Assembly: GCF_000169175.1 (NCBI RefSeq)
Contig: NZ_AAWS01000003.1
Coordinates: forward strand, 1-64,000
Origin: Microscilla marina ATCC 23134
GTDB taxonomy: Bacteria; Bacteroidota; Bacteroidia; Cytophagales; Microscillaceae
Direction: 5' to 3'
DNA length: 64,000 nt
The position numbers and the translations under genes are program-made. How positions within the stretch are numbered: position 1 is the stretch's first letter; each line of letters starts with the position of its first letter. Below the pieces are notes generated by a model that saw only the letters and a list, made by a program, of their open reading frames with translations, had not been told where the DNA came from and ran no database searches. Positions 17,028-62,095 of the stretch are shown piece by piece.

Positions 17028-18539
17028 ATGAAACAACTCATTGAACAATGTATCCCACACCACCTCATTGGAGACGATAATGAGAAAACCAAAGCCCGCA
17101 TTTTTGTGTTTTCGGGGGTGGCAGTATCCTTACTGGGTCTAATAATGATTTTGCTTTACCTTACTGTTGTTCCTACGCCCACCAGTAATTTTATAGCTAC
17201 ATTTATACTCTTTGTTTTTTCGCTTTTATTGCTTGTATATTTCAAAAAAACCGGTAATCTGAAAATTGCCGCCAATGCATTGATCACGTTTGGTTTTTTG
17301 GCGCTTAATGTATCTGTGATAGATACTGGGGGTATATATTCTATGGATTTGATTTGGCTGGTGGCTTTTCCATGTGGGGCATTTTTGTTTGTAAATAACA
17401 AAAGTGCTTTTTGGTGGACAGCGGCTTCTATATCGGTGACTGTCATTTACCTTATCATTGCGTTTACGGCTCCCCAATTGCTAGGTAAAGTACAGTTTGA
17501 CCCCATATATAATTTTGTAAGTGTATGCCTTTGCATCGCCATAGTAATTTCTATCATTTACTATTTTGTCAAACAAAATCAACTTTATAGCCTGGTGTTG
17601 GCTCAAAAAAACGAAAAGCTGGAAAAGGCACAAGAAGAAATGATTGTCCAAAATATGGTGCTTCAGGAGCGGCAAGAAGAGATTGCCACCCAAAACGAAG
17701 AACTTATTCAAAACCAGGAAGAAATTATTGCCCAACGCGATTTTATAGAGGTTAAAAATCGGGCACTCGAAAACCGCGACAATCAAATTAGCCATAGTAT
17801 TAGGGCAGCTCAAGTGATTCAACAAGCAATTTTGCCCAATGCCCATAGTTTACAATTGTTACTGGGCGATCATTTCATTGTGTTCAAACCTAGAGATGTA
17901 GTCAGTGGCGATTTTTACTGGGTGAGCAAAGTGCAGGGGCAAACAGTGTTGGCTTCGGTTGACTGTACTGGACATGGGGTGCCGGGTGCTTTTATTTCAT
18001 TGATTGGGCACAACTTACTGGACAAGGTGATACTCCAGCAAAAAATCACAGATCCGGCAACTATCATCAATACTTTACACACCGAAATTGTACAATTACT
18101 TAAACAAGAAGCTGGGCGTAATAATTATGGCATGGATTTGACTGTATGCGCCTGGCAACATACCTCTGACGGTTGTCAATTGTTGTTTTGTGGTGCCAAA
18201 AATTCATTTTATTATACATTGCCCAACCAGTCAGGATATACTATACTCAAAGGCACCAGAAAGTCGGTAGGAGGTATACAACCCGGAAGTATTCATTTTA
18301 CTAACCAAAGTGTATGCTTGCCTCCGGGTAGTATGTTTTATATTGGCAGTGACGGCATAGAAGACCAAAATGACAAAAAGCGTAAAAAACTAGGTACCAA
18401 AAAGGTACTACGTATACTAAGTGATGCGGCTCACTTGCCTACGGCTGAACAAAAATTGCTGCTTGAAAATAGCTTAAAACAACACATGGAGGGTACTACC
18501 CAACGCGACGATATACTGTTGATTGGGGTAAGGGTTTGA
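17028..18539 (+). CDS. Membrane-bound SpoIIE/PP2C phosphatase, paralogue
   Basis: Start at ATG 17028 (503 residues); an upstream TTG at 16920 would add 36 residues of unlikely sequence. Five or six membrane helices (about residues 25-185) without a large extracellular domain, a long coiled coil rich in Glu/Gln (about 190-260) and a SpoIIE-type phosphatase domain: VSGDFYWVS, DCTGHGVPGAFISL, FCGAKNSFYY, GSDGIEDQN, QRDDILLIG. The phosphatase half is clearly homologous to that of 14454-16613, so this pair arose by duplication with replacement of the sensor part. Likely a separate transcript (over 400 bp gap). Confidence 0.88.
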   Translation: MKQLIEQCIPHHLIGDDNEKTKARIFVFSGVAVSLLGLIMILLYLTVVPTPTSNFIATFILFVFSLLLLVYFKKTGNLKIAANALITFGFLALNVSVIDTGGIYSMDLIWLVAFPCGAFLFVNNKSAFWWTAASISVTVIYLIIAFTAPQLLGKVQFDPIYNFVSVCLCIAIVISIIYYFVKQNQLYSLVLAQKNEKLEKAQEEMIVQNMVLQERQEEIATQNEELIQNQEEIIAQRDFIEVKNRALENRDNQISHSIRAAQVIQQAILPNAHSLQLLLGDHFIVFKPRDVVSGDFYWVSKVQGQTVLASVDCTGHGVPGAFISLIGHNLLDKVILQQKITDPATIINTLHTEIVQLLKQEAGRNNYGMDLTVCAWQHTSDGCQLLFCGAKNSFYYTLPNQSGYTILKGTRKSVGGIQPGSIHFTNQSVCLPPGSMFYIGSDGIEDQNDKKRKKLGTKKVLRILSDAAHLPTAEQKLLLENSLKQHMEGTTQRDDILLIGVRV

Positions 18540-18684
18540 TGAATCAATAGATTTTATTTATAACTGATGGAAAATAAGTGCCCTATAAGTTTGTTAGCTA
18601 CCCGTGAACCGAATTTATTGCCGATTTATCGGGTAACTTGCTGTAATGAGCTTAACAGAGTGTAGCGCTGGTAATACTAAATTT
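18540..18684. repeat. Intergenic repeat word between convergent genes
   Basis: Contains GTGAACCGAATTTATTGCCG, then GGGTAACTTGCTGTAATGAG and AGTGTAGC. The same order of words (GTGAACCGAATC, GCTTGCTGTGATGAGCTCAA, GGGTGTAGC) is found at about 45956-46013, so it is a diverged dispersed element. Confidence 0.5.
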
Positions 18685-19701
18685 TTAGTAAGAAAAACGC
18701 ACTACAAATGTTTTTTTTACCCTTACCGCCTTGCCTCTTTGTCTGCCAGGGTTCCACGGTGACGACCCTTTGAGCAAACGAATGGCTTCTTTGTCGCAAC
18801 CATTGCCCAAACCCCTCAACACTTTAAAATGACTCAATTGTCCGTTTGACTCTACAATAAACTGCAAGATAACGATGCCACTGGTGTGGTTAGCTTTAGC
18901 TTCGGGAGGGTATTGCAAGTTTTTTTCGAGGTATGCTGCCATTTGAGCGCTGCTACCTTGAGGAGTGGGTGGCTGTTCTACCACCACAAACACTGGGGCG
19001 TCTTTTTTGGGGTCATACATGCGCAGAAAGCCGCCAGAAGTGTTGATATAAAACTGCTTTTTTGCTTTGTTTACCAAGGCTTTACCTTGGACAAAATCTG
19101 TTGCCTCATCATACTGGCAAGCAATTACTTGTTGTCCATTTTTGTTCAAAAAGCCATATTTCCCCTGGGTGTTTTTTGCTTTCAGTCGCTGACCCATCAA
19201 ACGAGGCGCTAAATATTGGTATTGAAAAGGTGTCAGTTGCTTGCCAGTAGCTTTATCCAACAAAGCAAACAAACCGTTTTGCTTGGCTCTTACTATAGGG
19301 GTGGGTGTGTTTTCTGGAGCCAATACATAAGTAAGTTGACTGTAGGCTGCTGGTACAACCAATTTGCCCCGGTTGTTTACCAAGCCCCATAGATTGCTGC
19401 GTCCTACTTTGGCATACCCTGCCCTAAACGACAACACCTGCTGGTACAAAGGCTTTATGACATACCTGCCTTGGGTATTGACAAACCCCCATTGCCCGTT
19501 TTTTTGCACAGCTGCCAGCCCTTCGGCAAAGGGGCGGGCTTTGCTAAATTGTGGTGGAATGCGTACTTCGCCTAAGTGCCCTCTATAGCCCATCAATCCA
19601 TTTTTTGATCTAAATAGTTTGGGGGTAGACTGTGCCCAGGTGTTTGTATTGCCACCCAGTAAAAATAACAATACCCATATTATCCCTTGTTTTTGGTACA
19701 T
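18685..19701 (-). CDS. Secreted WG-repeat protein with TonB C-terminal domain
   Basis: A 338-residue protein with a signal peptide ending NTWAQ. Residues about 30-230 are WG repeats (NGQWGFVNTQGRYVIKPLY, NLWGLVNNRGKLVVPAAY, GKYGFLNKNGQQVIACQY). Residues about 240-338 form a TonB C-terminal domain (LQYPPEAKANHTSGIVILQF, GNGCDKEAIRLL, VRVKKTFVVRF). There is no N-terminal membrane anchor as in true TonB, so it is not a normal energy transducer; the TonB-C fold is often reused in secreted Bacteroidota proteins. A lipoprotein with the same C-terminal domain is encoded just upstream (6-bp gap), indicating an operon. Confidence 0.85.
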   Translation of the reverse strand: MYQKQGIIWVLLFLLGGNTNTWAQSTPKLFRSKNGLMGYRGHLGEVRIPPQFSKARPFAEGLAAVQKNGQWGFVNTQGRYVIKPLYQQVLSFRAGYAKVGRSNLWGLVNNRGKLVVPAAYSQLTYVLAPENTPTPIVRAKQNGLFALLDKATGKQLTPFQYQYLAPRLMGQRLKAKNTQGKYGFLNKNGQQVIACQYDEATDFVQGKALVNKAKKQFYINTSGGFLRMYDPKKDAPVFVVVEQPPTPQGSSAQMAAYLEKNLQYPPEAKANHTSGIVILQFIVESNGQLSHFKVLRGLGNGCDKEAIRLLKGSSPWNPGRQRGKAVRVKKTFVVRFSY

Positions 19702-59989: not shown

Positions 59990-60823
59990 ATGAGTAATAA
60001 ATACGACAAGATATTTAAAGAGAATATTGGCGAATACTTTTTATCTTTGAGCAAAAAGCACTTGGGTATAGAGGTAGCAAGCAGCGAAGAACTCAAAGAC
60101 AAACTGCAAACTACATTGGAGCGAGAGGCTGATTTTCTGAGAAAAATAACTACGCCAAAGGGCGAAAAAATGATCATTCAGCTAGAGTTTCAAACCACCG
60201 ACGAACAAGGAATGGTAGAGCGAATGCAGCTGTGTTTTGCCCTGTTACGACAAAAGTATCAATTGCCCGTACATCAGTTTGTGATTTATGTAGGGAGCAA
60301 ACCACCTAAAATGCGTACTAGGTTGCAACCACAAGAAATTTTTACTGGTTTTAAGTTGATTGACTTGCAGCAGGTAAGCTATGAGCAATGGCTTGACTCA
60401 AATATACCAGAAGAAATGCTGCTTGCGATATTAGGTGATTTTCAGCAGGTAGATGCTTTGATAGTTTTGAAACAAATAATTTCAAAACTTGACAAACTAA
60501 TTAATGACCCTGGTACGTTACAAAAATATATCAGGCAACTCACCACCCTTGCCCGATTGAGAAATTTGACAATTGAAACCAAAAAAACACTGAATTCTAT
60601 GGCATTTACTTATGATATTGAAAAAGATGCTTTTTATCAAAAAGGAGTAAAAACAGGTAAGGAAGAAGGAAAAGAAGAAGGCAAGAAAGAAGGCAGGGAA
60701 GAAGTAAAAATAGAAATGGTACTTGGCTTGATCAACTCTGGCAAACTTACCTTAAGTGAAATTGCCCAACTTGCAAAAATTAGCCTGGAACAAGTGCAAA
60801 AAATTGCTGATCAAAATAAATAA
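59990..60823 (+). CDS. Rpn-family PD-(D/E)XK nuclease
   Basis: A 277-residue protein of the Rpn/PDDEXK-transposase-like family. Nuclease core: READFLRKI (Asp48) and IIQLEFQTT (Glu66-x-Gln68, the ExQ variant), then VHQFVIYVGSKPPKMRT. Helical middle part to about 200. From Met204 (60599) the C-terminal segment MAFTYDIEKDAFYQKGVKTG is followed by a Gly/Lys/Glu-rich repeat (KEEGKEEGKKEGREE) and a small helix-turn-helix-like end (GKLTLSEIAQLAKISLEQVQ). That 3' 212 bp is duplicated immediately downstream as a separate ORF. Established for E. coli Rpn proteins: DNase toxins, some neutralised by an internally initiated C-terminal fragment. Here Met204 could be such a start. Confidence 0.85.
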   Translation: MSNKYDKIFKENIGEYFLSLSKKHLGIEVASSEELKDKLQTTLEREADFLRKITTPKGEKMIIQLEFQTTDEQGMVERMQLCFALLRQKYQLPVHQFVIYVGSKPPKMRTRLQPQEIFTGFKLIDLQQVSYEQWLDSNIPEEMLLAILGDFQQVDALIVLKQIISKLDKLINDPGTLQKYIRQLTTLARLRNLTIETKKTLNSMAFTYDIEKDAFYQKGVKTGKEEGKEEGKKEGREEVKIEMVLGLINSGKLTLSEIAQLAKISLEQVQKIADQNK

Positions 60824-61047
60824 ACTTTGCAGTAATATGGCACTTACTTATGACATTGAAAAAGATGCTTTTTATCAAAAAGGAGTAAAAAAAGGTAAGG
60901 AAGAAGGAAAAGAAGAAGGCAAGAAAGAAGGCAGGGAAGAAGTAAAAATAGAAATGGTACTTGGCTTGATCAACTCTGGCAAACTTACCTTAAGTGAAAT
61001 TGCCCAACTTGCAAAAATTAGCCTGGAACAAGTGCAAAAAATTGCTG
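60598..61047 (+). repeat. 212-bp tandem duplication of the Rpn 3' end (period 238 bp)
   Basis: Copies 60598-60809 and 60836-61047 differ at only three positions by my count: two near the start (Phe/Leu change and one silent) and one Thr/Lys change. The period of 238 is not a multiple of three, so the second copy is read from its own start codon. Confidence 0.95.
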
Positions 61048-61058
61048 GTAAAGTATGA
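60837..61058 (+). CDS. Free-standing copy of the Rpn C-terminal segment (possible antitoxin)
   Basis: A 73-residue protein starting at ATG 60837 (MALTYDIEKDAFYQKGVKKG), nearly identical to residues 204-274 of the upstream Rpn nuclease and lacking the nuclease core. Composition: short N-terminal motif, Gly/Lys/Glu-rich helix (KEEGKEEGKKEGREE), C-terminal helices (TLSEIAQLAKISLEQVQKIA). Its start lies 13 bp after the Rpn stop and its TGA overlaps the ATG of the next gene (ATGA), so three ORFs are translationally linked. Its likely reading in light of E. coli Rpn biology is a dedicated small antitoxin, but a decaying duplication is the alternative. Confidence 0.7.
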   Translation: MALTYDIEKDAFYQKGVKKGKEEGKEEGKKEGREEVKIEMVLGLINSGKLTLSEIAQLAKISLEQVQKIAGKV

Positions 61059-62095
61059 TCACACAAACCCAACACCTGATTACTTACCTAAAAACCTCTG
61101 TACACCCCCAAAATAGCATTATATCGTCTTATGCCAAGGCAATTGAACAGTTAGGTGACCAAGAAGACCTACAAGCATTGCTTGAGTTGTTTTTGCAACA
61201 AGCAGATAATTATAAATACCAGGCATTGCTTAGCCCAATCAAAAGGCGAGGTAACAAGGCAATGGCTGATGCACTGGTGGAGCATTGCTTTGATCACTTT
61301 TTATTGAAAGAAGGAATTACCGAAAAAGTACTGGATTGTATTACCTGGCTTAAACACCCCCAAGCCGAAGAAATACTTTGGCGTCATTTTCATCATGAAA
61401 AAGCCAACTATTCTATGCACCAGGCAGCTTGCATAGGTTTATTACATTTTGACTTAAGTGCCCACCAAGGAGTAATTCTGAAAGCAATTGAAGCTTGCGT
61501 TGGCAAAAACATATTTGACGAATTTGTACCTGCCTTGGTTTGCAAAATAACCGATATCGCCAAACGCAATGAGTTGGCAGAGCGCCTCTATGAATCAGGC
61601 TGTACCATTACTTCTACCGATTGTAACGGAGGCATTGTATTGGGGCTTGCTTTATCACCTGGCAGAGGTGAAGAACTTTTCAAGAAATTGTTTTGGGACG
61701 AGTATTGGGAAGTACAAGGAGGTGGCACAGGTACCGATACCTTTGCTTATACGGGATTGCAATACCTGCAAATAACCATACAAGATTTATGTAAACAAAT
61801 ACAAGCAGACATAGACAATGGGCAAGACGATCAACAAACCATTCATCAATTAAGGGTTTTAAGGTCTATGTTATCTTGTCGAATTAGGCGATCCTACTCG
61901 CTTTTAAAGTTTTCTCCTGTATTTACTGATAGTTTGTTGAATGTATACGCCAGTGTTTTTAGCTGGAGTACCCCACACAAAAATGACTCACTTGCTGGGT
62001 TGGCAAGCAAGCTTACTCAAGGCAAGTTCAATTTTTATAAAGAAAAGACCGAACTTCAGCTAAAAGTAGACAAGGAAATATTGGAAATAAGGTAA
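61055..62095 (+). CDS. Helical (HEAT-like) repeat protein
   Basis: A 346-residue cytoplasmic protein, mostly helical. Repeating helix pairs (ISSYAKAIEQLGDQEDLQAL, KAMADALVEHCFDHFLLKEG, EKVLDCITWLKHPQAEEILW, SMHQAACIGLLHFDLSAHQG) suggest HEAT/armadillo-like structure. One Gly-rich loop (VQGGGTGTDTFAYTG) stands out. No catalytic motif recognised. Start overlaps the stop of the small Rpn-tail gene by 4 bp, so it belongs to the Rpn transcription unit; whether it takes part in the Rpn function is unknown. Confidence 0.75.
   Translation: MITQTQHLITYLKTSVHPQNSIISSYAKAIEQLGDQEDLQALLELFLQQADNYKYQALLSPIKRRGNKAMADALVEHCFDHFLLKEGITEKVLDCITWLKHPQAEEILWRHFHHEKANYSMHQAACIGLLHFDLSAHQGVILKAIEACVGKNIFDEFVPALVCKITDIAKRNELAERLYESGCTITSTDCNGGIVLGLALSPGRGEELFKKLFWDEYWEVQGGGTGTDTFAYTGLQYLQITIQDLCKQIQADIDNGQDDQQTIHQLRVLRSMLSCRIRRSYSLLKFSPVFTDSLLNVYASVFSWSTPHKNDSLAGLASKLTQGKFNFYKEKTELQLKVDKEILEIR

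Follow-up and report, generated by a model that had tools for sequence, protein, structure and literature searches.

A free-standing copy of an Rpn-type nuclease tail in Microscilla, older than a species split and apparently kept alike by gene conversion

Microscilla marina ATCC 23134 harbours an Rpn-type nuclease gene (L) directly followed by a free-standing copy (S) of its own C-terminal segment. The locus lies in the window, i.e. the whole stretch of 64,000 nucleotides that was analysed (contig NZ_AAWS01000003.1). Judged from the sequences compared below, the duplication is older than the split of two Microscilla species, and gene conversion since that split is the simplest reading of the close likeness between tail and copy. 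Similar layouts recur among the surveyed Rpn genes, but only the pair in the window was found to be equal in repeat length.

L (59990..60823, forward strand) codes for 277 amino acids, which comprise a head (residues 1-203) and a tail (residues 204-277). Read from Met204, the tail spans 74 codons (60599..60820, forward strand) and represents a candidate internally started small protein, methionine being present at this column in 67 of the 85 aligned L proteins (14/16 of those with a downstream copy and 53/69 of those without). A 13-nt spacer (60824..60836, forward strand) separates the TAA stop codon of L from the ATG of S, the latter gene (60837..61058, forward strand) encoding 73 amino acids. 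The two segments form a direct repeat (60598-60814 and 60836-61052) of 217 nt at 98% identity, a degree of likeness which is not due to chance. The first-pass annotation, according to which the 3′ 212 bp of the nuclease gene are tandemly duplicated with three differences, is borne out by this alignment, as five differences are found over 217 nt, three of them within the first 212. The same holds for its statement that the copy has its own ATG (60837) at the position of codon 204 of L (60599), and for the ATGA overlap of the end of S with the next gene (61055..62095, forward strand, 346 amino acids), which is kept, overlap included, in the second Microscilla genome, G001. In a profile search the product of this next gene matched no family above its cut-off. 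A search for exact matches to a Bacteroidota promoter pattern returned none in 59990-61058, and six in the window versus 4.9 expected by chance. An assembly artefact as the source of the tail copy is unlikely, since the second genome has the same layout.

The product of L matches the Rpn profile TIGR01784 with an E value of 2.4e-7 and 30.8 bits, the curated cut-off being 52.1, while PF04754 and PF12784 gave no match to it in the profile search; among 23 aligned relatives these two families were matched weakly by three (best E 0.0012) and two (best E 0.00012) proteins, respectively. The PD-(D/E)XK core with D ... E-x-Q is present in L, and the presumed catalytic residues are kept almost throughout the 85 aligned Rpn proteins (D48 85/85, E66 84/85, Q68 85/85). 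By order and spacing, D6, D48, E66 and Q68 of L seem to be the counterparts of D11, D63, E82 and Q84 of RpnA, a member of the YhgA-like/Transposase_31 nucleases RpnA-RpnE as presented in the accessible text of Kingston et al. 2017 (PMC5350276). The same text reports no activity in the assays for RpnE, the K-12 protein that is accompanied by a free copy, whereas L retains the presumed catalytic residues. The C-terminal helical domain with a variable number of four-residue repeats is also present, as seen from the alignment, in which length differences are multiples of four, and from the structural model, where the L tail is predicted to form one long and two short helices. The model of S alone consists of three helices (mean pLDDT 69). 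The best Foldseek match of the L model had an E value of 0.0089; by sequence, neither L nor S had a meaningful counterpart among solved structures, RpnAS included. With PADLOC at E 0.01, no match was obtained for L, S, the next gene or the nuclease and first copy (S1) of a further locus of the same genome, C16; the second copy of the latter (S2) gave a single weak match (E 0.0011). A pattern scan of viral contigs returned 260 stretches, none of which was confirmed as a relative.

The age of the duplication follows from the comparison with G001, the nearest genome, which belongs to a second Microscilla. At its syntenic locus both L and the copy are present, and the copy again overlaps the same next gene by ATGA; moreover, the spacer aligns between the two genomes without gaps and the 3′ end of the copy is common to both. 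Since the copy, a homologous spacer and the same 3′ end are found at the same site in G001, the duplication, on sequence grounds, predates the split of the two species, which differ by a dS of 0.33-0.41 in the flanking genes and of 0.405 in the L head. Two independent duplications at identical breakpoints are an unlikely alternative to a single old one. It had been proposed earlier that the near identity points to a recent event, and that the locus displays the birth of a dedicated antitoxin gene. The 98% identity between tail and copy does speak for such a recent birth; however, with the copy already in place at the syntenic locus of a second species despite the divergence of the flanking genes, we consider it highly improbable. 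A DNA search of 15 genomes of the family detected the arrangement seen in the window nowhere but in the two Microscilla genomes.

As the copy is older than the species split, yet the dS between tail and copy is low (0.023 in the window, 0.112 in G001), their near identity is best read as homogenisation. Between the species, dS reaches 0.570 for the L tails and 0.622 for the S genes. When the four tails (L and S of both genomes) are aligned, 34 sites unite tail and copy within a genome, three unite orthologues and none displays the third pattern; the three orthologue-grouping sites are all situated at the 3′ end, beyond the 34. In the AU test the orthologue grouping was rejected, both when the L tails and when the S genes were placed together (p 0.0022 each). 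S is open in both species, with 80% nucleotide identity and changes that favour third codon positions (9-11 versus 23).

Further Rpn loci of the two genomes are more heterogeneous. At C16 of the window genome, the nuclease gene is followed by two tail copies, of which S2 has an identity of 0.94 to its own L tail, while S1 is of a foreign, C3-like type with an identity of 0.88 to the tail of the window locus; the grouping of S1 with the C16 tails was rejected (p 3.4e-5). Beyond the last C16 copy lies purL, in the opposite orientation. Comparison with the positional orthologue (L013, L049) gave 14 sites of the within-locus pattern, none of the orthologue pattern and one of the third, but this pair is less clean as a case of homogenisation, because the L heads (dS 0.84) differ more than the purL genes beside them (dS 0.37). 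The same difference suggests, as a separate observation, that head sequence may also be exchanged or replaced. C21 of the window genome has no tail copy, whereas its orthologue in G001, C10, has one, of C31 type (0.91 nucleotide identity to the C31 tail). A swap of L tails between C10 and C39 of G001, hinted at by a tail identity of 0.89, was not upheld, the tree placing the C10 tail with its orthologue C21 with weak support (38/74). When aligned by eye, neither C16 S1 nor the C10 copy matched the register of the other L that each resembles. Besides these loci, a fourth, more distant Rpn gene of the window genome (contig C2, ∼1260-2019, L015) has a frame that stops just before the tail, which continues in another frame without a start methionine. 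On contig C10 of G001, a short extra remnant, composed of the end of an Rpn head and the start of a tail, lies ∼290 nt past the L stop (L050). Meanwhile contig C1 of genome G126 carries tandem Rpn genes (17784-18605 and 18872-19693) with equal match scores and the last 90 residues identical; from its sequence, this locus (L098) is a whole-gene rather than a tail duplication.

The layout of nuclease plus tail copy was surveyed more widely. Of 146 genomes searched, 53 had a match, and 80 stretches were taken from these. The survey covered 83 loci besides the window; four pieces or unfinished frames among the 88 Rpn frames were left out. The loci are the better-scoring rows, several per genome, and do not constitute a random sample. 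Regions C16, C21 and C2 of the window genome were included and C27, C64 and C51, with weak or decayed matches, left out. Matches to fragments of Rpn genes that are decayed or belong elsewhere (L065, L109, L111, L112, L117), the remnant at L050 and the out-of-frame own tail in L015 were not counted as copies. In all, 85 L genes from 27 genomes were scored, and for 82 of these genes the downstream sequence extended over 300 nt or more. Tail copies lie immediately downstream of 16 genes, distributed over eight genomes, with one or two per gene and 17 altogether. The recurrence check proposed with the first-pass annotation has therefore a positive answer. For 10 of the 17 copies the best-matching L tail is that of their own L. 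Two additional candidates, L152 (a Saprospiraceae MAG) and L158 (a Chitinophagales MAG), were noted among the named loci outside this count.

The repeat length, measured between two anchors in each copy and its L, sets the window pair apart, as it is the only one of the 17 in which both are equal. For thirteen copies the offset from their own L is a nonzero multiple of four residues, while for the remaining three, with weak anchors, it is 5, 7 and 10; even the S orthologue of G001 is one four-residue unit apart from its L. The rpnE loci of E. coli behave alike: in all 13 that have the copy as a separate gene, L and copy differ by a nonzero multiple of four and no pair is equal. In E. coli RpnC, according to the accessible text of the preprint of Zhong et al. 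2023 (PMC10327210), a single extra repeat abolishes neutralisation, so that L and S must have equal repeat numbers, as is the case in the window. Should this rule hold in general, the majority of free copies would leave the neighbouring nuclease unrestrained, with the window pair as the exception, and the antidote reading would not be transferable to the recurrent layout, since only the window copy equals its L.

That preprint, in the portion available to us, describes E. coli RpnL/RpnS as an intragenic toxin-antitoxin system: RpnS is produced from within rpn in E. coli and C. difficile, and E. coli RpnS, which folds into one long and two short helices in the case of RpnAS, blocks its RpnL. 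The model of the L tail agrees with this set of helices. Free-standing rpnS genes are reported there as ypaA after rpnE, where the product was detected, and after rpnC in some strains, and RpnL itself is suggested as a possible trigger of the recombination by which downstream copies arise. The earlier view of S as a free-standing antitoxin gene derived from an intragenic one stands insofar as an Rpn nuclease is joined by a free copy of the segment that serves as the intragenic antitoxin in E. coli, and fails as regards a recent birth; such a derivation has already been published for rpnE and rpnC (PMC10327210). Both systems share the Rpn head, the variable helical tail with four-residue repeats and a separate tail copy just downstream, and a further likeness is the loss of copies, in some E. 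coli strains by deletion or fusion. In contrast, the downstream copies of E. coli were traced to independent origins; they also bring the in-gene ribosome-binding sequence along, whereas the Microscilla repeat begins one base ahead of the S ATG. In the text of PMC10327210 at hand we found no mention of homogenised tails and copies, of a foreign-type copy within an array such as C16, or of the rarity of equal repeat length, nor did a literature search by titles and abstracts, with most subscription papers and supplements outside its scope, reveal a paper dealing with conversion between the tail of an Rpn gene and its copy. The E. coli loci compared here are a manual selection from a spread of 60 records, out of 5371 with a match, and the strains are related.

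Taken as a whole, we regard it as somewhat probable that the locus is a chromosomal Rpn-type toxin-antitoxin locus in which S is an extra antidote kept matched by conversion. The L head would be a PD-(D/E)XK-type DNA nuclease and the tail a helical dimerisation/HTH module which, by analogy with E. coli RpnA, may also be made alone, both from Met204 and from the adjacent S. The free tail would bind the L tail via the long repeat helix and hold the nuclease inactive. Being equal to the L tail in repeat length, S should act as an additional, separately dosed antidote; toxicity of the nuclease, initiation at Met204, neutralisation by S and joint expression of the two genes would all be expected from the E. 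coli work. The tandem duplication would have given rise to S before the two species split, and later conversion may have kept S like the L tail, so that antidote and toxin stay matched while both change. Three points count against the toxin-antitoxin reading, namely the score of L under the TIGR01784 cut-off, the failure of the sequence search to match RpnAS among solved structures, and the 16 of 17 free copies that are not equal to their own L.

The prevalence of out-of-register copies may also be viewed from another angle, with free copies serving mainly as recombination donors and conversion or deletion replacing the L tail. With the main antidote read from the L tail, toxin and intragenic antidote would then switch specificity together, in one step, and most copies, being out of register, could be stored without silencing the nuclease. 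The homogenisation in the window, the foreign type of C16 S1 and the C31 type of the C10 copy in G001 agree with such a role, as do two of the 15 E. coli rpnE loci (L134, L135), in which L terminates in the sequence otherwise typical of the copy, with no separate copy annotated. These two loci look as if two tails had recombined. However, the tree did not confirm the C10/C39 swap, and L and copy remain distinct at their 3′ ends in each of the 13 E. coli rpnE loci that have both (L of the DADIPN type, the copy ending in SEADLAANNH), unlike the homogenised Microscilla pair, which argues that conversion is infrequent in E. coli rpnE. A role as donors appears rather doubtful. It is also quite unlikely that S is a passive by-product, i.e. 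a tandem duplication devoid of protein function of its own, retained through the coupling of its end to the translation of the gene that follows, and homogenised by conversion between neighbours. This would account for the ATGA overlap in both species and for the drifting repeat length of most copies, but S is open in both species with third-position-biased changes (a pattern that conversion from L could impose), and translational coupling cannot explain every copy, as the last one at C16 precedes purL on the opposite strand.

In the preferred reading, with S as an extra antidote, the locus bears on the question of how a toxin and its antidote can change without losing their match. According to the available text of PMC10327210, the overlapping arrangement forces toxin and antitoxin to co-evolve, a constraint which a free copy escapes. 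Here, gene conversion appears to have held one free copy in line with its nuclease, whereas almost every other copy that was compared has a different repeat length. Provided that the published rule on a single extra repeat applies generally, such out-of-register copies would not serve the neighbouring nucleases as ordinary antidotes, and what they do becomes a concrete question open to testing.
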